Shown here one piece after another: positions 4,101-26,250 of a DNA stretch of 40,325 nucleotides. Source of the DNA: Rhodopirellula sp. (lineage in GTDB: Bacteria > Planctomycetota > Planctomycetia > Pirellulales > Pirellulaceae). The stretch's first letter is position 1, and every line of letters begins with the position of its first letter. Location: contig NZHC01000053.1 in assembly GCA_002689655.1 (NCBI GenBank), positions 1 through 40,325 of the forward strand. The letters run 5' to 3'. The position numbers and the translations under genes are program-made. The notes beneath the pieces are model-generated. The model worked only from the letters and a program-made list of their open reading frames with translations. It was not told the DNA's origin and made no database searches.

Positions 4101-7100
4101 TCAGACGGCTGTTTCTCTACGGCCCATGGACCAAACAGACACAGCAGCCAAGCCAACCAGCAACATGATGACGAGAGTCGACTTCAGCAACGGTAATCGC
4201 AACCGAGACTCAAAGTCCAGTTCAAGTTCCAGAGGAGCATTCTCCGCGACCTGCACACTCCGGCGGAAGGTATAAACGTGCCCCTCTTCAGGAAGACTGA
4301 TAACAATTGCCTGCGGTGCGGGTTCGGTCGTTCTTTGATGCTGAACCAATCGTCCCGCAATACGCTGCAAGGTCGCGTTATCCTCGCTTGAATTACCACG
4401 CAGCAATTGGCTCAATTCCTGCGGCTGGTAATTCAACTGATCCTGTTGCAGGATGGGATTCTCTGCCGCCGCTTGCCGCATTTGCTGGTTGTCATCTACT
4501 GCAATTTCTTCCCGATCATTGTCCAAGAAAAGTCTTTGCCGACGGGTATTGAGCCCAACAATTGCCTGCTGTGTTTGCAGATTTTCAAGTTGAACCCTGG
4601 CATCTTCATTGGATGCGGCGTCGAGTCCATACTGATTAGCGACGCTATTGAGAGCCCAGTTCGCTTTTGTTTGTTCTCCATTTTGAATGAGCTGATTCGC
4701 TTGCTGCAATGTGATCGCAGCTTGCTCAGCTTTCATCTGCCGAGAACGACTGGTTTTGGAAAGGTAGGATTGCACGTCATACTCAGCTTGGCTGGCACGT
4801 CCAACCAGTTCGAGATTGCCGTCGTTGTCCGTCAAGTCAAAACCTTTGGGCGCAATCACACTCCATTCAATATTTTCCAGCGGAACATTGAGTTGAGGAC
4901 TTTCCAGATTCAGGTTCCCCAGACTGCTGCCGGGAACGGTATAGATAAACCGGACATTCGCAGTTCGGTCGTCCATGCCGGGGAGAATGTAAAACTGCCA
5001 TGCATTTGTTTCGCCACCAACACGAATGGAGTTCACACTTTCACCGTTCACAAAAATGCTGAAGATTTCTCCTCCCTTTGGCAGGCCAACGCTCAGGCTA
5101 CTGCGCTGAATAACTTCCATGCTAACATCCACGGCCGTCAATTGATCTCCCTTGGGTGACAGCACAGTTAACAGAGTTCCACTCTTAACTCGCAACTTGA
5201 GTGCATCGGCCAGCGCGTGTCGTTCCACATCAACGTTCAGTGGTTCCGCAGACTTCTGAGCTCTTAGTGTTACAACAGGGGCATTCCGATTTTCGGAGTC
5301 ACGCAGTGAAGCAGGCACCGCGTTCCAGTCAATTTTCTGCCAACCTTGAGGCATGGAGTCGATATCGATCTCGAGGCGTCCTCCTGCACGAATAGCAAAA
5401 TAGAACGGTAATTGTCCTGCCTGTGGAAATCCAGCCAAACGCAGAACCTCGGCTTCTTCACTGAGATCGCCCCTGCGCTCGTATTCGATGCGAAAGTCAA
5501 CTGTCCCAAGCACCCTGCGTTTGAACTGCACTTCCCACAAATTCTTATCAGCATCGATTTTGACAAGATCACTGACCGTTTTGCCACTGGCTCGCAACGT
5601 TTTCACTTCATCTGCGTTGGTGATTGGAAGGACAATCTGCAAAGCACGAATGGATGCGTTCTGCACATTGAAACTTGCAATCAGCGCGGAACGGGTCTGT
5701 CCCTCTCGAAGGGTGATTTCCTGCAAGACATTGCCAGAAATACGCGGCTCAAGTTTCTCGATTCCCAGCACGAGTTTCCAATCTCGTTGCAACAGTCGAA
5801 ATGCCAGAGCTCCCACTGACTTTCCACCAATAGCTCGCGGGTCCGTTTCGGAAACATTCTGGCGTGACAGGGTTCTCAATCGAATTCCGGTCGTGGGTCG
5901 AACAACGAGTTCTCCTGTCTGACGTACACCTTCTTTCAGCTCAAAATGAGGTATTTCCCATTCCGACACATTCGTTGGCGTATTGCCAGCCAGTGTTAGA
6001 GCAAAACTTTGTGGACCGATCGTCTTGCCGTTGAGATGCAAGATAATTTGACGCTGCCCGTCTTCACTTAACTCCGCCCAGTGGTGTAGTGATGCTCCAC
6101 TGAGGGACTCAACCTCAAGCCCAGTTGGAAGTGGAAAACTTAATTGAAACAGGCCAGCTCGGGAAATTTCGGCTGAGAAATTGACCGCGAGCACCACACG
6201 TTCATCACCAAATGAGAGCACCTGATTACTGATCACCCTGACTTCGGAAGCCACCGGCGACACGCGCAAATCAACCTCGCCACCCTCTGCACCGTAGCGA
6301 TAGACACGATGCAATACAGCCTCGGGGTTCGTATTCAAACTGAAGTCAAAGTCACCGACATTTACGGTCGACATTTTCTCTGGCTTCAAGGTTTCTGGCT
6401 GCGCGTCTGGACCAAAGGCGATTGCGACCAGGCCCACTTCTCCGTCAGCCTCCTCAACGCTGAGTGGAGCAAGCTTGACATCGGCTGGCAGCGGGTCCAG
6501 ACCACGCTGGGTCTCGACTGTAATGTTGAAGGGCTTTGCCTGCGCAGGGGACACTTCAAGTGTCAGCCTACCTTCATCAGCATCAAACTGCCATGAGCCT
6601 ACAGGGCCCCCGACATCGCTGACAGTCAACCCTGTGGGGACGAGCACTGTCAATTCGCTTACCTGCCCTTGTGAGGCTCGAATATTGAGTTGATGCCTAC
6701 CATCAACAACACCAGGTCCCGGCAGAAACAAATTGGAGGCCTCAACAAAGAACCGTGTCTCTTCCATCGTGACATCACGGGCTCTGGGCTTAAGCATGAC
6801 TACCCCTTGCCCCGGACCCAACCATAACCGGTTTGTAGTTGCCGCCTGATCGTTCTCTGCAACCGATTCAATTTTGACAGCAGTGGAACAGACCACATCC
6901 CAGCCGGCTTCATCGTAGGTGAGTTCAATTTTTTGCACGGCTGCATCACCCGTGGGAACGGCAATTCCATCTTTTGGATTGACTGCTTCCACTTGAAATT
7001 CGAAGTTGGCATGGTAGGTCTGATCGGCTTTGGGTGTGGCAGCGCCGGCTTCCTCTACATTCGCCGTTTCGTTGTCGGGTTCCTTGGCTGGGATACTCAC

Positions 7101-10100
7101 CACGTAAACCAGTCCGAGTCCAGATAAAGTGGTCTTGGTGAGGCGTAGCCCTTCACCCTCGAAATTCGTCAAAACAGCAGGCGACTTCAAAACGAGGAAT
7201 CGATCTCCCGGTTTACCAGACAAAGTCATTTTTCCCTCAGCGATAAGTCGCTGATCCAGATGCGTCAACTGCCATGTTTGCTCAATGGAGTCAGCTGATC
7301 GCAGACTTGCCTGCGTCGCCGCCTGCTTGGTTGCTTGCTGAGCCTCTGGTTCATCCGCGATGCTCGACGAACACATCGAAGACAGCAACAATCCAAGCAT
7401 GACAATGGTCGCGGTCACTGGGCTTGGTCCACCATCTGTTTCTTCATCATCGGCTGAATCATCTAGAGCTTCCCACTCCTCTGAATCCTCTGGCTTCCCT
7501 GCCCTCTTTGCATGTACCAGTCGGGCTTTCGCTGACCGCAATGCATCCCAACCTGCGTGCAAAATTGGAAAAATGCAGATTACTGTCGCGAGCAGCCAGA
7601 AAAACCATGCAGCACTGTCCCGCTGCATCAACACTGCGACAAAGACGAGAAATGCGGAACCTACCCGCAATGGCATTCGGTACTCTTCAAATCTACTCAT
7701 CCATGAAGAGACGAAACCAGCAAGGCTGATGACAAAAACGATGCCCCCAAATGTTGAGAAATTGACTTGCCAAGTTGGGATATTGTGCACATCAAGTTTT
7801 ACAACATCACCTGCTGACAGGATTGGCAGGCTGAGTATCAGGGGAACAACTTCTCCGGTCTGGGTCGATGCATAAGATGCTGAATTCAAAGCGTAGTAAA
7901 GTGCTGCAACCAGAGGAAGCAAACAAAGATGTCGCCACTCAGCGTCAGCGTTTCGAATTACCAAGCCCACAACAATGAGAAACATGATCACGAGGAGTGA
8001 TGATGTACCCCGCCGAGCTAACCAGTCAAAACCAGATGGTCTTAAAACTGGCACGGGTGGCTTGACCGTCCCCCCAGTCGGCACCAACACTCGCTGATCA
8101 TCTGCCTGAACACTCCACTCAGTCTTCAGCACAGGCGCGAACACGATGGGTAACATCAACTGTGGTCGCGATTCACTCACGGCGGGTTTCCCCAGACGCA
8201 ATCGCACCTGAACAGGGATACTGGGATCAATTCCGCCAGGCAGGGGTATTAGAGTTTCATTACCTGATCGCCTCGCGGTGACGGGCAGAAATGGAGACTC
8301 GGTTGCTCCGGCATTCTTATCATCACGATACCGCACCGAGACTTCCCACAACCGCACGGGCTTATCAGGAATCTGTATCCTGAGAGTCCGTTCCCCACGA
8401 GACTTGACATAATACAGCACTTCTGTGACCAATTCTCCATCCCGAGAAACACGACTTTCTGCCTCAGAAAACTCGACCACCTGACTGACCGTGGTTCCAG
8501 GCTGAAACCACTTGACCTTCAGATCGAGATTGAAGGGCCGTTCAGTGTACTGCCATGTCCCCAGCGGGGGTGCGGTACTCAAAAGCCTGAATTCTGCCGG
8601 CAATTCAAGCGGATCAAGCACAAGCATTCCATCGGAAATCGCGACAGTCTCACTTTCGACCTGCATGGGACTGACAATTTGAATGTAGCCGCGTTCTCCC
8701 TGAACCCCCAACGGCGCAACCTGGCCTGGAGAAAACGACCCTTCCAAATCACGTGGCTTTTCCTCGAATGTGACCAACAGGGTGTATGGTCCCATTACTG
8801 GTTGGTGGAGCGACACGACTAACGTGTCACCTTCGCGACGTGAATCCTGCACATTCTGTCCATCGACCACTTCGTTCTTCAGATTCTCGGGAAGTGTGAT
8901 CCGCAACTCCGAAACAGGTGCTCCGGTAATAAAGTAGTTAATCAAGGCACTTCCATAAATGGTTTCTTGACTCAGGGAGTAGAGGTGAAACACGTCACTT
9001 TGAACGCTGCGATCGAGAAGTTCGATTTTCATCGTGGCCGACCAATCTGGCTCACGGATCCTGAACGCCTGCTGCAAATTGGCGGTTGGTTTTGGAAAAT
9101 AAGAGAGTGGCTTTTCGACAAGTAACTCAGTTGCTTCTATCGCAATTCGGAAACCCGGAGCTCCAATGATGCCAATGTCACCTCGAACCGCTTTGGCTTC
9201 CGGATGTTCGATTCGAGGCAATCCCCAATCACCAGCAGTAGCGGGTTCACTTTTTTCAAGGTGCAGACTGATCAGCTGACGACCGGAAACATCCTTTGCG
9301 AAAATAGTCTTCAAATTACGGAGCCCATCCGCCACCTCACTCGCAGTGAGATAATCCGCGACACTTGCTCCCGTCACGGAGACCACGGAGTAATCCGAGG
9401 GGATACTGAAATTCCATTCGCGGATCGGAGCCTCGCGAATATCAAGTTCAATGTCGGCCCGAATCACACGATCCGTCTCAGCCAACTGATACAGCAGCAA
9501 TTCAGACACACTCACTTCGGGCTGAATTCGGTCAGCAACGACAGTAAAGGCGTGTGATGCTGCCGGGAATCGATACACATATACCTGCCGAGTCTGAAAT
9601 GCTTTGCCGGGGAACTGTTCTGGGGACAACTGCGTCAGGCCCGAAAGTGCCGTGGGTTCCAGCCGCACGGAACCAAGATTTGCCAGTCTCAGAAATCCGG
9701 AGTGGCGAATCGTACCGATCGGCTCCAGACGCAAACCCTCAATTCGCACAGGGAACGCCCCCAATGGAGTTTGGCTACGTATACTCACTTGAGCTGTATC
9801 CGTGATCGGCTGACTGAGCGTCACATCCAATCGCCGCTGGCCATCTTTTTCGCTCACCTTCCAAGCCACGATATTGTCTCCCTTCACATCAAGGATCTCA
9901 CCAGGGCCGCTCAGACTCATGCCCAACGCTCCCAATGCTCCCTGCAGAACTTGATAACTCAGCAGATGATCCTGTCGCAGCAATCCCGATCCAACTCGTG
10001 CCTCGATGACACCGGTTGTCGTAAAAAAAAGTTTGCCTTCTCCTGCTGTGCGTTTCGGCTTCCATTTCAAATGGACTCGCCCACTGGCCGGAAGAAATCC

Positions 10101-11231
10101 AAGCCAGATATTTTCCTGCCACAACGGCGATACTGATTGCTGATCGCGATGAAAGGTAATTTCCGCATTGAGTCCCTCAAGACGCATGGGCACGACAGCG
10201 CCGGCAGCGATAGTAAAATCAATACTCCTCTGACTATCAGCCGCCTTGTCGATTTTCGCGATAAATTCCAGTTGGACAGGAAAAGTCCCAGGCTTGGAAA
10301 AGCTAACTTTGTAAAAACTCTGCTTACCTGTCGTGGCTAAACGCACCTGATAGTTTTCATCCTCAGGTATCTGGACCAGCGCAGCATTCCCACTCAATAG
10401 CGTCAACTCAACCGACGGATCGGTCACTCTCGCTGTGGTTGCTAATTGGAACCGGGCAGATTGTCCATCACTGTCAACGATTCCATTCAAACTCGTGTCG
10501 CTCAACTCGACTGAATCGGGCGACGCACTGTCCCGCGCCAATGACAATTGGATTTGTCCTCCAGTTGATGTTTGAAAACTGCTTTCCCCCTTGCGACCGG
10601 ACAATGGCACAAATCCACTTACGTTCGCCAGCATTCCTGCAACACCGGGGCCATACTTGAAACTCACTTTTGAATCAAAACCAACGCTGGCTCCCGGGCC
10701 TAAATGAGTCAGGTTGACCGCGGTGGGCAAACTGTATTTCGGTGAAGTGATTTTGATAACCGGTTTGGGATCGGTAACACCTTCGTTGAGTTGAAGATCC
10801 AGAAATCTATCTTGACCACTTTGCCGGACTGACCATGAGGCAATTCCGTCACCTTTGACCTCCAGCACCTGTCCGTTTCCAGTGAGACCGAAACTCAAAA
10901 CATCGGCCTTTCCTTGCACCACTTTGACCGTCAACGTTACCGTCTGATCGATACGTTCTGTACCGATATTGGCGTTTGCAATCACTTGGGCACTGTAGAA
11001 AACAGGAGGCGGTGGAGGAGGTGTACGTGATTCCAACACAATGGTTCGAACGGTGTCAGCATCCGCAGAAATCGTTGCATCATTCTCGCCTTCACTCTGA
11101 GCGCACGCTGGCGTGTCCCAACCAATCGCAAGCCAGGCCATCATTCCAATCAGCCCAAAACGCACGGGGCCTATGATCGAAACGGCAGCAGATGCCAAAC
11201 ATTCATGAGTTAGAACCACTTGATTTCTCAT
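4101..11231 (-). CDS. Giant exported membrane protein with repeated beta domains
   Basis: About 2,376 residues, no named family recognised. The N-terminus has a hydrophobic stretch ending in an ACA-Q-like cleavage site near residue 43, then a run of six prolines. Two stretches are clearly similar, about residues 78-163 and 403-488 (GNGQVLEVKGDGIASW versus GPGEILDVKGDNIVAW), so a beta-sandwich unit is duplicated. About residues 1070-1290 hold several membrane segments, an acidic loop and a second signal-like hydrophobic stretch (MLGLLLSSMCSSSIADEP). More beta-rich sequence follows, then a Gln-rich helical, probably coiled-coil part and a final membrane anchor near the C-terminus (LVIMLLVGLAAVSVW) with a short basic tail. 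It is the third gene of a unit with an ECF sigma factor and a vWA protein. The start is set at ATG 11231; a TTG at 11252 is in frame. A structural or scaffold role in the envelope is inferred only. Confidence 0.8.
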   Translation of the reverse strand: MRNQVVLTHECLASAAVSIIGPVRFGLIGMMAWLAIGWDTPACAQSEGENDATISADADTVRTIVLESRTPPPPPPVFYSAQVIANANIGTERIDQTVTLTVKVVQGKADVLSFGLTGNGQVLEVKGDGIASWSVRQSGQDRFLDLQLNEGVTDPKPVIKITSPKYSLPTAVNLTHLGPGASVGFDSKVSFKYGPGVAGMLANVSGFVPLSGRKGESSFQTSTGGQIQLSLARDSASPDSVELSDTSLNGIVDSDGQSARFQLATTARVTDPSVELTLLSGNAALVQIPEDENYQVRLATTGKQSFYKVSFSKPGTFPVQLEFIAKIDKAADSQRSIDFTIAAGAVVPMRLEGLNAEITFHRDQQSVSPLWQENIWLGFLPASGRVHLKWKPKRTAGEGKLFFTTTGVIEARVGSGLLRQDHLLSYQVLQGALGALGMSLSGPGEILDVKGDNIVAWKVSEKDGQRRLDVTLSQPITDTAQVSIRSQTPLGAFPVRIEGLRLEPIGTIRHSGFLRLANLGSVRLEPTALSGLTQLSPEQFPGKAFQTRQVYVYRFPAASHAFTVVADRIQPEVSVSELLLYQLAETDRVIRADIELDIREAPIREWNFSIPSDYSVVSVTGASVADYLTASEVADGLRNLKTIFAKDVSGRQLISLHLEKSEPATAGDWGLPRIEHPEAKAVRGDIGIIGAPGFRIAIEATELLVEKPLSYFPKPTANLQQAFRIREPDWSATMKIELLDRSVQSDVFHLYSLSQETIYGSALINYFITGAPVSELRITLPENLKNEVVDGQNVQDSRREGDTLVVSLHQPVMGPYTLLVTFEEKPRDLEGSFSPGQVAPLGVQGERGYIQIVSPMQVESETVAISDGMLVLDPLELPAEFRLLSTAPPLGTWQYTERPFNLDLKVKWFQPGTTVSQVVEFSEAESRVSRDGELVTEVLYYVKSRGERTLRIQIPDKPVRLWEVSVRYRDDKNAGATESPFLPVTARRSGNETLIPLPGGIDPSIPVQVRLRLGKPAVSESRPQLMLPIVFAPVLKTEWSVQADDQRVLVPTGGTVKPPVPVLRPSGFDWLARRGTSSLLVIMFLIVVGLVIRNADAEWRHLCLLPLVAALYYALNSASYASTQTGEVVPLILSLPILSAGDVVKLDVHNIPTWQVNFSTFGGIVFVISLAGFVSSWMSRFEEYRMPLRVGSAFLVFVAVLMQRDSAAWFFWLLATVICIFPILHAGWDALRSAKARLVHAKRAGKPEDSEEWEALDDSADDEETDGGPSPVTATIVMLGLLLSSMCSSSIADEPEAQQATKQAATQASLRSADSIEQTWQLTHLDQRLIAEGKMTLSGKPGDRFLVLKSPAVLTNFEGEGLRLTKTTLSGLGLVYVVSIPAKEPDNETANVEEAGAATPKADQTYHANFEFQVEAVNPKDGIAVPTGDAAVQKIELTYDEAGWDVVCSTAVKIESVAENDQAATTNRLWLGPGQGVVMLKPRARDVTMEETRFFVEASNLFLPGPGVVDGRHQLNIRASQGQVSELTVLVPTGLTVSDVGGPVGSWQFDADEGRLTLEVSPAQAKPFNITVETQRGLDPLPADVKLAPLSVEEADGEVGLVAIAFGPDAQPETLKPEKMSTVNVGDFDFSLNTNPEAVLHRVYRYGAEGGEVDLRVSPVASEVRVISNQVLSFGDERVVLAVNFSAEISRAGLFQLSFPLPTGLEVESLSGASLHHWAELSEDGQRQIILHLNGKTIGPQSFALTLAGNTPTNVSEWEIPHFELKEGVRQTGELVVRPTTGIRLRTLSRQNVSETDPRAIGGKSVGALAFRLLQRDWKLVLGIEKLEPRISGNVLQEITLREGQTRSALIASFNVQNASIRALQIVLPITNADEVKTLRASGKTVSDLVKIDADKNLWEVQFKRRVLGTVDFRIEYERRGDLSEEAEVLRLAGFPQAGQLPFYFAIRAGGRLEIDIDSMPQGWQKIDWNAVPASLRDSENRNAPVVTLRAQKSAEPLNVDVERHALADALKLRVKSGTLLTVLSPKGDQLTAVDVSMEVIQRSSLSVGLPKGGEIFSIFVNGESVNSIRVGGETNAWQFYILPGMDDRTANVRFIYTVPGSSLGNLNLESPQLNVPLENIEWSVIAPKGFDLTDNDGNLELVGRASQAEYDVQSYLSKTSRSRQMKAEQAAITLQQANQLIQNGEQTKANWALNSVANQYGLDAASNEDARVQLENLQTQQAIVGLNTRRQRLFLDNDREEIAVDDNQQMRQAAAENPILQQDQLNYQPQELSQLLRGNSSEDNATLQRIAGRLVQHQRTTEPAPQAIVISLPEEGHVYTFRRSVQVAENAPLELELDFESRLRLPLLKSTLVIMLLVGLAAVSVWSMGRRETAV

Positions 11232-11288
11232 TGCATTACTCTGACTTTCCAAGGTTGATAATCACCGTGTTGTTTTCAGTTTTTCCTG

Positions 11289-19621: not shown

Positions 19622-20860
19622 CTACTGGTTCAGCTGCTCTTCGACAACTTCCTTACTGGCCCTTGTTCCGAGAGCACCCCAGAGACCGTAAGGACTCTTG
19701 GATCCTGCCCGTTGACCCCAGTAGTAAACTGACTGAGCGTGAGAGTCACCAGCCTCGATCGAGTCGGTGATGAAGATAACAGCACCATCGCCCATCAGGA
19801 CGTGAGCTCCGCCTTGGTGACGACTACTAGGTGGCATGGTTCCCTCTCCGCCCCACGTCCACCACATGCACAGCTCCTTGTTTGGAGGCAGGATGGTGTT
19901 CATTTGAGAGTTGAGCGGGAAGCTGTTCGCCCACATGAAACCACGTCCGGCAAAGGAAGGACCGACAGCAACGCCCGGAGCCCATTTGGTTGGGTACTCT
20001 GGATCCATCTTGCCATTGTCGCGGCAGAGAGAAGGATTGTCAGCGATACCGTAATAGGAGTCGTCAGCACCGATGGTACGGATGTCGCGATCTCCGAGAT
20101 CCGTTGCGATCTCGCCGGCCATCACCGTGTTTGCAAGACCGTCCAAAATATCTCGGAACTTTGTCACTGAGCGGTGAACGAACGTTCCACGCTCTGCGGC
20201 GCGACTGTAGTTCACCTTGAAGGAGCTCGGACGTGGGTTCAGATTGTAGTGAGGAACTCCCGTGTGACTCCAGTTGTGGGAATCACCCATGCAAGCTGCA
20301 TAGTTGGTTCGACCACCAGCGGGCAGGCCTTGACCTGGATCACTTGGGCATCGGAGGGTCGGAATCTCAGTCACCCATGGACGATAACGTCTGTTCTGGA
20401 TCGGATCCGGATTGCCACCGGTACGATACAAACTAGGCGTTGGTCCCATGGCCGGCCAAGGTCCCCCATTCTGTCCCACGAAGGGAGTATCTGGGTTCTC
20501 CACGTCGTACTGGCTGGGATTGGAAATTTCTTCCCAGAGTGCTTGCTGCTCGATGAAAGGCAGAAGCCCAACAAGGAAACTGAGCGACTGATTGTTGCGA
20601 ACCGAACTGTTGTGAGCGTAATGCCCGGGCACAATTAGCTCGCCGGTACCAGCACCCTGCGTAGGCAGTTGCTTGTATGTCGAGTGGTAGTTGTGGATCC
20701 CAAGTCCAATTTGCTTGAAATTGTTGCTGCAACTCATGCGGCGGGCTGCTTCGCGAGCAGCCTGCACAGCTGGCAGCAACAAGCCGACCAAGACTCCAAT
20801 GATCGCAATGACCACGAGGAGCTCTACCAGCGTGAAGCCGGAGCGAGAATACTTTCGCAT
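19622..20860 (-). CDS. DUF1559 protein with prepilin-type N-terminus
   Basis: 412 residues of the DUF1559 family (SBP_bac_10 type), massively expanded in planctomycetes. The N-terminus is a type IV pilin-like signal, [18 protein letters not shown], where cleavage before the Phe would leave a hydrophobic helix. Next comes the family signature [29 protein letters not shown]. The C-terminal family motif is present in [19 protein letters not shown]. It is expected to be a pseudopilin-like surface or periplasmic protein; the exact function of the family is unknown. The start has GAGGA 6 bases upstream. It follows a small lipoprotein gene on the same strand by 83 bases and ends with a strong terminator, so the two probably form one unit. 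Confidence 0.95.
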
Positions 20861-22169: not shown

Positions 22170-23222
22170 TTACCGCGTCGACCCACCACCGGTTCCTCTA
22201 CCACCAAAACCGCCTCGGCCTCCTCCTCGATGGTCAATTTCGCCGTCCCCGTCACGATCTTCACCGTAGGGCACAGCTCCTTCGAAATAGATGCCCTGGC
22301 GATTTCCTTTCGCGACATGCTGCGAATAGACCTTCAGTTCAGTCGTGGCCGCGAACCTCGCATTTGCTTGCTGCATTGCCGCGATGATCTCATTTTTCTG
22401 TGCATTCAGTGGCAACTGCTTCAACACCTTTCCTTTCATGCCGAATTCACCGGCGTGAATCAATACGATTCCCGGTTGCTTACTGGCACCGCTGATTTTC
22501 GTTTTCCACTCGCTTCCCTGCTCGAAGTCAAAATGAAATCGCCCAATCACGGACGCGTGATTGGCGACAGGCCGTAACGCTTGCCGCAGCTTCGGCTCCT
22601 GATCAGCAGGAGCATTGATCAACACGAGTACCCGTTGGTCAGCCGAGGCAACATTCAAGGCCTGTCGGAAACTATGAAAATCCTGAACCAACGCATCCTT
22701 GGAATCCGCTTTGGCAGGATACATCAAGGCGTAACGATGCAATGCATCCGTCGCGCCGCTGCGTCCGAACACTTGCTGAGGACCGCGACTCGCCCGACTC
22801 AGCCACTCCTGACCATCAGGTGCCAGCATGCAGAAAACACTGTTTTCGAAACGTCCACCCAGGAACGTACGAACATATTGCTGATGCTCAGGACTCTCAT
22901 AAGAATCAAGTCGGACACAAACGAAGTCACGGGAAGCATCAATAAAATCAGGGGACGCGAACAGACCGTTCTGCGTAGCAGTATAGCCAGGTCAGAAGAC
23001 GCCCGAGACACCGTGGCACTGGGTTGCAGCCGCCACAAACATGATGGCGCGACCGCTGCGTTTTGCCTCTGCCTCGGCAGATTCCCATGTGGTGTACCAC
23101 TGAATTCCTGGTTCACCCAAATTTAGTTTGGAGGCGCCAAGGTTGCTGGGGCGAGGCCCCTGAGCCACAACACACCCGCCGAGAGCGGCTAGACAGAGAA
23201 CGACTGCAAAACGCTTAATCAT
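22170..23222 (-). CDS. Probable thioredoxin-like selenoprotein (in-frame TGA = Sec77)
   Basis: One frame runs from ATG 23222 (AAGGG 8 bases upstream) to 22170, 350 codons, broken only by TGA at 22994-22992. Residues 1-21 are an export signal with a possible lipobox (LGGC). Residues 40-130 read as a thioredoxin-like domain: WESAEAEAKRSGRAIMFVA, then CHGVSGVF-U-PGYT, then ASPDFIDASRDFVCVRLD, so the fold spans the TGA. Sec77 is not in a CxxU pair; the nearest upstream Cys is C69. Residues about 150-285 may be a second, Cys-free thioredoxin-like part (VLVLINAPADQEP). Asp-rich DRDGDGEID (322-330) looks like a calcium-binding loop, and the last 20 residues are RGG-rich. A SECIS-like hairpin follows the TGA. 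The alternative is a nonsense mutation, but no other damage is seen and the downstream part has no good start of its own before codon 132. A redox or peroxide-related role is inferred. Confidence 0.75.
22956..22975 (-). promoter_or_regulatory. Putative bacterial SECIS hairpin
   Basis: Minus-strand RNA 17-36 nucleotides after the TGA. The 5' arm is CGC-(A)-GAAC (22975-22968, A at 22972 bulged), the loop GGUCU (22967-22963) and the 3' arm GUUC-GCG (22962-22956). All seven pairs are Watson-Crick. Distance from TGA to loop is 24 nucleotides, inside the range accepted for bacterial SECIS elements. E. coli fdhF also has a GGUCU apical loop and a 5'-side bulge in its SelB-binding hairpin. The element lies within the coding sequence, as expected in bacteria. 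Confidence 0.72.
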
Positions 23223-23504: not shown

Positions 23505-24821
23505 TCAACCGCGGTCGAGATAGCGATTGAACACGTTCAGCAACATTTCCTGTCGCCCGCTCTGATTCGCGGCTGCCTCACCTTTCTCGAGCATGATTGC
23601 CTCAAGTTCTGTCAGAGACGTTTCGCCAGCCTCAATTTTTTTGCCGAGCTCCCCATCCCAACTGGAATAGCGAGCAGTTAACGGATCACTCAAGGCGTTA
23701 TCAGCCTCGATCGCTGCGGCTACCCGCAACCCCTTGGCAAACGCGTCCATGCTTCCAATATGTGCGTGAAAAAGATCAACGGGCTCAAAACTCTCGCGTC
23801 GCACCTTCGCATCAAAGTTTACTCCACCAGGAGATAAACCATACTTCAGCAGCACCAGCATGATCTGCGTGGTCAGGTAATAATCGGTGGCGAACTGGTC
23901 CGTGTCCCAGCCGAGTAGCAAGTCACCCGTATTGGCATCGATACTACCCAATGCCCCCTGCATACCCGCATACTCCAACTCATGCATCATTTCATGGCCA
24001 GCAAGTGTTGCATGATTGGTTTCGATATTCAGCTTAAAGTGATCCGTCAGATCATAAGCACGCAGGAAGTTCAAACAGGCTGCGGCATCGGAATCATACT
24101 GATGCTTGGTAGGTTCTTTGGGCTTCGGTTCAATTAGAAACTGACCGGTGAAGCCAATTTCTTTTGCGTAGTCAACAGCCATGTGGAAGAAGCGTCCAAG
24201 ATGATCAAGCTCGCGTTTCATATCAGTGTTGTACAAGCACTGATATCCTTCCCGGCCACCCCAGAACACGTAATTCTCACCCCCCAGATCGTTCGTGACC
24301 TCCATCGCTTTTTTGACCTGAGCAGCAGCGTAGGCGTAGACCTCCACGTTGCAGGTCGTAGCCGCACCGTGCATGAAGCGGGGGTTGCTGAACATATTGG
24401 CTGTTCCCCACAGCAGCTTGACTCCTGTACGTTGCTGCTCTTCCTTCAGGACAGCAGCAACCGCATCAAAGTTGGCATTGCTTTCGGCCAAGGACGCCCC
24501 TTCCGGAGCGACATCACGATCATGGAAGGCATAGTAAGGTGCGTCCAATTTCTCGAAGAACTCGAATGCTGCCCGAGCTCGATTGCAAGCGTTCTCAACA
24601 GACTCCGTGCCATCATCCCATGGCCTTACCATGGTTGGGCTGCCGAACGGGTCAGCTCCAGTTCCCCTGAATGTGTGCCAGTAGACGACCGTAAAACGTA
24701 GATGCTCTTTCATGGTTTTGCCGGCAACCACCTCATCGGGGTTGTACCACCGGAACGAGAGCGGATTGTCGCTATCGGGGCCTTCGTAACAGATCTTGGA
24801 AATTTCGGGAAACGCAGTCAT
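23505..24821 (-). CDS. xylA: Xylose isomerase
   Basis: 438 residues, the usual length of class II xylose isomerases. The enzyme interconverts D-xylose and D-xylulose in the cytoplasm with two divalent metals. Catalytic [10 protein letters not shown] contains His100 and Asp103. Metal-site sequence is [13 protein letters not shown] with Glu231 and Lys233, and later [20 protein letters not shown] and [13 protein letters not shown]. All are intact. The start was set at ATG 24821, giving the family N-terminus ([20 protein letters not shown]). The frame runs further up to 25034, but that part overlaps the divergent regulator and is not protein-like. It is divergent from xylR, 172 bases apart, and is probably controlled by it. 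Confidence 0.97.
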
Positions 24822-24993
24822 GAGTGTTGCCTGCCACCATCGAGGAGTTGGAATTCGGAGGATTTGCGCACGATTGCGGCTTGTCGCCACAACCATATAA
24901 AATAAGGAGAGCGAGCATTCTTGCCGATTTGAAGCCCAGATCCATGAGAGAATGCGCAATCTATCGTAGAAATTTAACAAATCTTGCAAACTC
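24822..24993. promoter_or_regulatory. xylA/xylR divergent control region
   Basis: The 172-base gap between the two divergent starts. It holds a split inverted repeat: GATTTGCGCA at 24861-24870 and TGCGCAATC at 24953-24961, nine matching positions if one base gap is allowed. These could be half-sites bound by a looping AraC-type regulator. An A/T-rich stretch CATATAAAATAA (24894-24905) lies between them and could be a -10-like element. Confidence 0.45.
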
Positions 24994-26250
24994 ATGCCGC
25001 GCCGCTCAGTCGCCTTGTTGATCGAAACCTCCAATGGCCATGGCCGTGGCCTGCTCGATGGTGTGATTGCCTACGTGAAGGAATCAGCCGACTGGTCTGT
25101 ATTTCTGACCGAACAGGAGCGAGGGGCCGTTCCCCCCAATTGGCTCAAAAATTGGCGAGGTGACGGGATCATCGCCCGCATCGAAACCGATGACATCGCC
25201 GACCAACTCAGGGACTTGCATGTTCCCATTGTCGACTTGAGCGCCACGCGACACTTCAAGGGAATTCCCTGGACCAGCACCGACGACATGGCAATCGCTG
25301 CGTTGGCGGTCCAGCATTTCATGGAAAGAGGGTTTCACAACCTCGCGTACTGTGGAGACCCCGGCTTTGCATGGTCCAATCTACGCCGCGACCGATATCG
25401 CGAACTGACTCTGTCTGCCGAACGGAAGTTTTTTGAATACCAGTCGACCCACCGATACGCCCCCCTGTTTGATTGGGAACAGGAAAAAACACGGCTTGGG
25501 CACTGGCTGACGACGCTACCGCGTCCGGTTGCGATCATGGCATGTTATGACTTTCAAGCTCAGCAGGTTCTTGATGCCTGCCGTCAGTCAAGAATTGCTG
25601 TGCCTGAGTCTGTCGCCGTCCTCGGCGTCGACAATGATCGTTTGATCTGTGAACTGGCCGAGCCATCCCTGAGCAGCATTATTCAGGACACACACGCCAC
25701 CGGCTACGAAGCTGCTCGTCTCCTGGATCAGATGATGGACTTACAAATCAAGGCAACACATCACCTGCACCACTCCAACAGGCATCACCCTGTCGATGGC
25801 ACCAAGCCCCCGATCGACCAGACACTCTCAACACTAACGACCACGACAGAACCGCCACTGCTTACCAAACCGTTGGGAATCATGGTTCGCGAGTCGACGG
25901 ATACCTTGGCAATCGATGACCACGAAATATCCGAAGCGTTGCAGTACATTCGTCGTCACGCCCACGCAAACATCCGTGTTACTGACGTACTGAAAACACT
26001 TTCTCTCTCTCGCCGATCTCTTGAGCACCGATTCAAGAAACTGGTCGGTCGCACACCTCACGAAGAAATCCAACGGGTACGCCTCAACAGCGTCAAACGC
26101 CTGCTATCCGAAACGGAACTTTCGATTACCGCGATCGCGGAACGCTCCGGTTACGAACACGGTGAATACATGACATCTGTTTTCCGAAGGGTCACGGGCC
26201 TGACGCCCACCGAATATCGGCGTGAACGTCGAAAACCTTCGGAGTCGTGA
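24994..26250 (+). CDS. xylR: XylR-type AraC family xylose regulator
   Basis: 418 residues with the XylR layout. The first ~265 residues form a periplasmic-binding-protein-like sugar-sensing domain (start [19 protein letters not shown], then [14 protein letters not shown] and [20 protein letters not shown]). A His/Thr-rich linker follows at about 255-300. From about 307 onward there is an AraC-type double helix-turn-helix: [20 protein letters not shown] and [20 protein letters not shown], ending [11 protein letters not shown]. It should bind DNA as a dimer and switch on xylA when xylose is bound. The divergent position next to xylA supports this. The start is the first ATG after the gap, with no strong ribosome site. 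Confidence 0.93.

Follow-up and report, generated by a model that had tools for sequence, protein, structure and literature searches.

A planctomycete gene that very probably makes an exported thioredoxin-like protein with selenocysteine at a mid-gene stop codon

Introduction

Thioredoxin-like domains carrying a single selenocysteine (Sec) are known from several curated families. The VPGUxxT selenoproteins (NF041382 and NF041383; 'OS_HP5') combine a Thioredoxin_7-like domain with one Sec near the start, placed, to judge by the family name, right after VPG, and the Trx7/PDZ (seleno)proteins (NF041199) have an N-terminal Thioredoxin_7-like domain with the listed motif CxxU and, by name, a PDZ domain. 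Two thioredoxin folds in tandem, the first of them catalytic, are found in the protein disulfide isomerase (PDI) tandems (PDI, ERp44 and a QSOX1 fragment); the PDI family is eukaryotic and Cys-based. The SECIS hairpin of Escherichia coli fdhF has a GGUCU apical loop and a bulge on the 5' side a few pairs below.

The 119 selenoprotein families in Table 1 of PMC13188914 include no UPG(Y/K) thioredoxin-like entry, and UPGQ is listed there for PrdC, a different protein. Selenoproteins are reported in two planctomycetes in PMC4807772, and the main texts of PMC13188914, PMC9312934 and PMC12013277 make no mention of planctomycetes or Verrucomicrobia. According to PMC12013277 (deep-Sep), every known selenoprotein now seems to have Cys homologues.

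The DNA analysed here, referred to as the window, is a stretch of 40,325 nucleotides from Rhodopirellula sp. (contig NZHC01000053.1). On its reverse strand lies a gene whose mid-frame stop codon is very probably decoded as selenocysteine, giving a full-length exported thioredoxin-like protein.

Results and discussion

Gene structure and distribution of the family

A first-pass annotation of the window, made from the letters alone, had described one gene of 350 codons open across a TGA at codon 77. The frame was re-read and agrees with this description, with one TGA only inside it (Table 1), and translation under table 11 gives split ORFs of 92 and 219 aa, the two broken genes predicted for a standard annotation. 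That split is what the TGA would produce as an ordinary stop, in which case the locus would be a pair of short genes, a pseudogene or an artefact of sequencing; we give this reading practically no chance, given the same TGA in 120 of 121 genes from two phyla, a protein conserved on both sides of it, and frozen silent sites downstream.

Table 1. Coordinates of the gene and its predicted features in the window
Feature	Position	Strand	Evidence
Selenoprotein gene (very probable), 350 codons, ATG to TAA	22170..23222	-	Read through TGA; homology flanks TGA in 48 aligned rows
In-frame TGA, probable Sec77	22992..22994 (codon 77)	-	TGA in 120/121 fetched genes, Cys in one
SECIS-like hairpin ACGC-A-GAAC-GGUCU-GUUC-GCGU	22955..22976	-	Frozen silent sites, fold of the isolated piece, loop coupling
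Predicted N-terminal signal peptide, ~residues 1-20	23163..23222	-	Alignment, predicted helix 2-19
Predicted thioredoxin-fold domain 1 (catalytic), ~residues 40-170	22713..23105	-	Model and Thioredoxin_7 match
Predicted second thioredoxin-like domain, without CxxC, ~residues 181-295	22338..22682	-	Secondary structure of model, PDI-type matches
Cys69, presumed resolving, in the insertion before Sec	23016..23018	-	Cys at 69 in 118/121
DRDGDGEID tail, calcium-loop-like, clade 1	22233..22259	-	DxD(G/A)D near the end in 35/37 rows of alignment A1

Searching with the window protein yielded 44 loci, of which 41 cover codon 77 (the partial loci L041, L043 and L044 do not and stand outside this count), and the codon is TGA in 41/41. 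A profile made from these first relatives led to a second clade, with ~25-35% identity to the window protein. Relatives were fetched to ~25-30% protein identity, from the phyla Planctomycetota and Verrucomicrobiota. Across all 121 fetched genes, codon 77 is TGA in 120 and TGT (Cys) in one, in line with the expectation of Sec or Cys at this position of the homologues; no rows were dropped for lacking TGA, and the count omits L045-L063, L115, L155 and L156, which are machinery loci, matches to tRNA, or duplicates of the window, L010 and L033. Since the same species is possibly present in both collections, we also give the number of TGA genes that are distinct over the 60 nt downstream, namely 114 of the 120. 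The occurrence of the same codon in many separate assemblies means that the TGA is not a read error; the first-pass annotation had named reads with a sense codon among three findings that would refute it, and none of the three holds. In the 48-row alignment (A2; the family rows then at hand, hand-picked for spread, L135 not included) only eight columns are invariant, the TGA column among them. The smaller alignment A1 (37 rows) omits L013, whose frame is interrupted further along, as well as L032, L035, L037, L038 and the three partial loci.

The family falls into clade 1, with the motif VF-U-PGY-T (50 genes), and its sister, clade 2, with the motif W-U-PGK (71 genes, 70 with TGA and one with Cys). 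The codon 5' of the TGA (22995-22997 in the window) is fixed per clade, being TTC in 50/50 and TGG in 71/71 genes, respectively. Two strong copies, all with TGA, occur in each of seven genomes, one per clade in G319 and G336 and both from clade 2 in G305, G325, G375, G400 and G411. Strong matches were found in 3 of 288 Verrucomicrobiota genomes, all three with TGA, and the complete genome of Planctomycetes bacterium K23_9 (L007) carries both a TGA gene and selA. One locus (L001) comes from a MAG labelled Spirochaeta sp. MED672; its protein is 98.9% identical to that of the window and its neighbours are window-like, and the label is probably wrong.

Selenocysteine machinery

SelA, SelB, SelD and tRNA-Sec, all expected by the first-pass annotation, are present in the genome of the window: selB, selA and selD cluster within 6 kb of contig 48, and tRNA-Sec is on contig 32. 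The SelB wing profile PF09106 had no match in this genome, a model that detects only 1 of 14 controls, and the full SelB model does match. At the rank of the family, 149 genomes contain 39 strong matches in 32 genomes, 38 of them with TGA and spread over 31 genomes. SelB was found over the cut-off in 29/31 genomes with a TGA gene versus 48/118 others (p = 4e-8), and in the phylum-wide set of 294 genomes, selA was over the cut-off in 37/39 genomes with a TGA gene versus 154/255 without (p = 7e-6), p-values that flatter, as related genomes are counted as independent. In both comparisons genomes with weak or partial matches were scored as lacking the gene (8/47 in the phylum set and 29/60 in the family set, the latter 29 including the genomes of the Cys form, G364, and of a remnant, G426). 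Among the genomes behind named loci, selA exceeds the cut-off in 36/40 (L001 left out).

The exceptions are G295 and G392, without selB over the cut-off (2 of the 31 family-rank genomes with a TGA gene), and, for selA, G082 and G280 (2 of the 39 of the phylum set) and G441, G442, G453 and G469 (4 of the 40 behind named loci). A clear tRNA-Sec was found in four of these eight (G295, G082, G441 and G453) but not in the other four (G392, G442, G280 and G469); scores of 47-49 bits were not counted as clear, since 48.2 bits is reached by G395, which is a Sec-less genome.

That Sec-less genome belongs to genus g220, which also holds the only Cys form. In L135 (G364) codon 77 is TGT and the hairpin loop is not kept. 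Neither selA nor selB was found over the cut-off in the 6 genomes of g220 searched, and in the tRNA-Sec search of the genus only G395 passes, barely, so that none has a clear tRNA-Sec. Of the gene, G426 retains only a remnant, from the second half (L136, 1200-1710), and the other four genomes show no match to it. This pattern of Cys form, remnant and absence is the expected residue of a loss of Sec decoding. We are unsure of the position of L135 in the tree, where long branches meet. This single Cys form, from a Sec-less genus, could be paired with its Sec counterparts to see what advantage selenium brings.

The same observations bear on whether the UGA might be read as some residue other than Sec, either Trp or, by a suppressor, Cys. 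UGAC is a leaky context, and the base 3' of the TGA (22991 in the window) is C in 118/120 genes, mostly because Pro comes next; set against this, presence of the gene tracks selA and selB, the genus without the machinery has a Cys form or a remnant, the hairpin is conserved, and TGA also terminates many of the same genes. We regard reading as another residue as very improbable. Reading as Sec is retained below, and comparison of sequences across relatives can be taken to show three of its elements, namely the recoding of the codon, the hairpin, and the accompanying machinery.

The hairpin downstream of the TGA

The hairpin with a GGUCU loop and a 5' bulge reported after the TGA was located in the window (Table 1). 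It contains eight pairs, four on either side of a single bulged A, where seven had been counted, and the reported spacing of 24 bases holds for the start of the loop (22967-22963), not for the hairpin itself, which opens with its 5' arm 15 nt downstream of the TGA. It resembles the fdhF SECIS in the GGUCU loop and in the bulge on the 5' side a few pairs below, and differs from it in a shorter stem, a bulged A in place of U, and the 15-nt gap between UGA and stem.

In clade 1, codons 83-88 (ACG CAG AAC GGT/AGT CTG/TTG TTC) are near-frozen at silent sites, with a mean same-codon share of 0.92 versus 0.40 (sd 0.06) in six-codon stretches elsewhere (41 rows, the near-identical L001 excluded; the comparison stretches are those outside the eight best, all eight of which overlap codons 83-88). 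The upper four pairs and the loop GU are kept in 50/50 clade-1 genes, and two bases of the loop are coupled, as G..C in 17/50 and A..T in 33/50. Clade 2 has a stem of different sequence at the same distance, GACAGG-AGUUU-CCUGUC. Over its 64 distinct 30-mers, 93.2% of cells are paired, versus at most 59.6% when the partners are slid, and 35 cells show two-sided changes, versus 6.9 in shuffles, with 0/500 shuffles reaching 35; relatedness is not kept in the shuffles and is kept when partners are slid, which gives 5 to 12 two-sided changes. Such changes are present in all six clade-2 pairs. At least one of the upper four pairs is missing in 13/70 clade-2 TGA genes and the loop GU in 10/70; by eye, several of these exceptions seem to carry the hairpin in another register.

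The isolated hairpin piece folds at -7.4 kcal/mol. In the minimum-energy fold of the single window sequence, 62 nt from the TGA on, the hairpin is absent (z -0.48), so that the case for it rests on comparison and not on stability; z-scores from single-sequence folding were uninformative for all five sequences tried. Rfam had no match in the window or in the 131-nt stretch around the TGA, and a covariance model of the sister clade, which is tied to the sequence of that clade, gave 25 matches in the window at E<=10, the best with E 0.31, and missed the hairpin. Conservation and covariation across the relatives place a SECIS hairpin within the coding sequence, directly downstream of the UGA.

Protein architecture and active site

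The product begins with a predicted signal peptide, MIKRFAVVLCLAALGGCVVAQ. A lipobox, LGGC, is present in the window protein, and the pattern recurs in 3/37 rows by script and in L040 by eye; with so few relatives sharing it, plain export appears to be the feature of the family. The structure was predicted with a pLDDT of 87.6 and a pTM of 0.84 as two thioredoxin folds, Sec77 standing right before helix 78-85 and after strand 60-65. The best Foldseek matches in the PDB are fragments of PDI, ERp44 and QSOX1 (E 5e-6). The window protein shares two tandem thioredoxin folds with the PDI tandems and lacks a CxxC (or CxxS) active site; TM over the query is only 0.21-0.26 in the 50 matches listed, with 6-14% identity, which indicates that the domains are placed differently. 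Searches against sequences of solved structures gave a best E of 0.021, to a designed protein, and a viral fold library had no match at E<=0.001.

Thioredoxin_7 (PF13899) was matched at E<=0.1 by 42/48 members. The window protein scores 16.3 bits, below the gathering score of 27 bits, and among ten sister-clade members L066 passes (29.7 bits), eight fall below the cut-off and one has no match. The superfamily link is sound, and domain 1 is a distant Thioredoxin_7 relative. Together with the signal peptide, the two-fold model and the PDI-type matches, this supports the earlier description of the protein as thioredoxin-like and exported, both fold and export being predicted from models. In clade 1, the calcium-loop-like tail (Table 1) may bind calcium.

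Aligned to distant CPKC, UPPC and UPGC relatives, Sec77 pairs with their first Cys or Sec across an eight-residue gap, which means an insertion of about eight residues before Sec in the TGA family; this insertion and the absence of the second Cys of CxxC distinguish it from Thioredoxin_7, whose domain it shares. The motif is mostly U-P-G-(Y/K), with UPG(Y/K/F/M) in 116/121 genes, and position U+3 holds neither Cys nor Ser in any of the 121, so that U-x-x-C never occurs. The first-pass remark that the Sec lies outside a CxxU motif therefore stands: U replaces the first Cys of CxxC in the Thioredoxin_7 relatives. A Cys lies 8-11 residues upstream of Sec in 121/121 genes, 1-3 residues before position 69 in the three that lack it there.

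Two further Thioredoxin_7-like loci, L097 (G161 contig 246) and L100 (G146 contig 162), have an in-frame TGA in UPPC and UPGC; they are candidate UxxC selenoproteins and distant kin of the TGA family.

We consider it highly probable that the gene encodes an exported selenoprotein with two thioredoxin folds, in which UGA 77 is read as Sec; the hairpin would guide SelB, and Sec77 would undergo redox chemistry with Cys69. In such a scheme, SelB with Sec-tRNA-Sec would decode UGA 77 during translation, presumably by binding to the downstream hairpin, with its GGUCU loop 24 nt from the UGA, and the product would be exported by its signal peptide. Sec77, in the motif U-P-G-Y, would occupy the place of the nucleophilic first Cys of CxxC and attack the substrate, and Cys69, eight residues upstream, would resolve the intermediate as a selenenylsulfide. 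The putative enzyme would most likely work outside the cytoplasm, in a redox cycle of thiol-disulfide (or peroxide) type.

A variant keeps the Sec and makes the protein a peroxidase of peroxiredoxin or glutathione peroxidase type in place of a disulfide oxidoreductase, with Sec taking the peroxide and a distant Cys resolving. UPGYT resembles the U-G-x-T of glutathione peroxidases, and the lack of Cys at U+3 (0/121) together with an upstream Cys in every row would suit such an enzyme. Yet the 11 Pfam families listed for the 48 members (E<=0.1) include no peroxiredoxin or glutathione peroxidase profile, and the best folds are PDI-type pairs. A peroxidase is possible but unlikely, and the disulfide oxidoreductase is the reading we prefer.

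Relation to described selenoproteins

Membership of a described selenoprotein family, either VPGUxxT thioredoxin-like or Trx7/PDZ, with existing models merely too narrow, would account for the weak NCBIfam matches at E<=1 (NF041199 in 34/48 members, NF041382 in 10/48 and NF041383 in 7/48) and for the Thioredoxin_7-type domain common to all. However, where cut-offs were displayed, in six members, no NCBIfam match comes near them: NF041199 (cut-off 300 bits) scores 12-16 bits in four and has no match at E<=0.1 in two, and NF041382 and NF041383 (350 and 275 bits, respectively) score 12-17 bits in four. The window protein itself had no match to NF041199 at E<=1. The matches span 57-129 residues of the thioredoxin domain. 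The active sites also differ, VPGU or CxxU (by name and table) versus VF-U-PG or W-U-PG: the window family has two residues between (V/I)(S/P)G and U, followed by PG(Y/K), and, compared with NF041199, it has no CxxU and its second domain models as a thioredoxin fold. We judge membership of a described family rather improbable; what we describe is a family of selenoproteins that has an active site of its own, holds Sec almost without exception, and is in no catalogue consulted. No description of the TGA family was found in searches of one open-licence library, and overlap with the candidates of S9 Table of PMC4807772 is possible. The family may have stayed uncatalogued because tools ask for Cys homologues, a requirement on which it would probably fail.

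A widespread, divergent and nearly always Sec-containing family is thereby added to the selenoproteins of Planctomycetota and Verrucomicrobiota. We lean, by a little over even chances, towards a broader reading, in which the family is almost wholly selenium-dependent, keeps Sec across two phyla for an extracytoplasmic reaction in which Cys is a poor stand-in, and bears a new remote-Cys/U-P-G-Y/K site on a PDI-like thioredoxin pair; if this is true, any catalogue that relies on Cys/TGA pairs will necessarily overlook such a family.

Genomic neighbourhood

The 42 neighbourhoods compared (41 loci and the window, with flanks of up to 5-6 kb, many shorter) have no neighbour at a fixed place beyond close relatives. 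Two clusters of neighbours, with 13 and 8 loci, extend to distant relatives, but their distances vary and they occur on either strand; xylA lies upstream in 6/42, all close kin. In the window, a xylose isomerase gene (- strand) adjoins that of an XylR-like AraC-type regulator (+ strand) at 23505-26250, upstream of the selenoprotein gene, an arrangement of close relatives only. Elsewhere in the window, 19622-20860 encodes a DUF1559 protein that has an H-X9-DG motif and an N-terminus resembling that of type IV pilins, and a reading frame of 2383 codons occupies 4101-11252 on the reverse strand.
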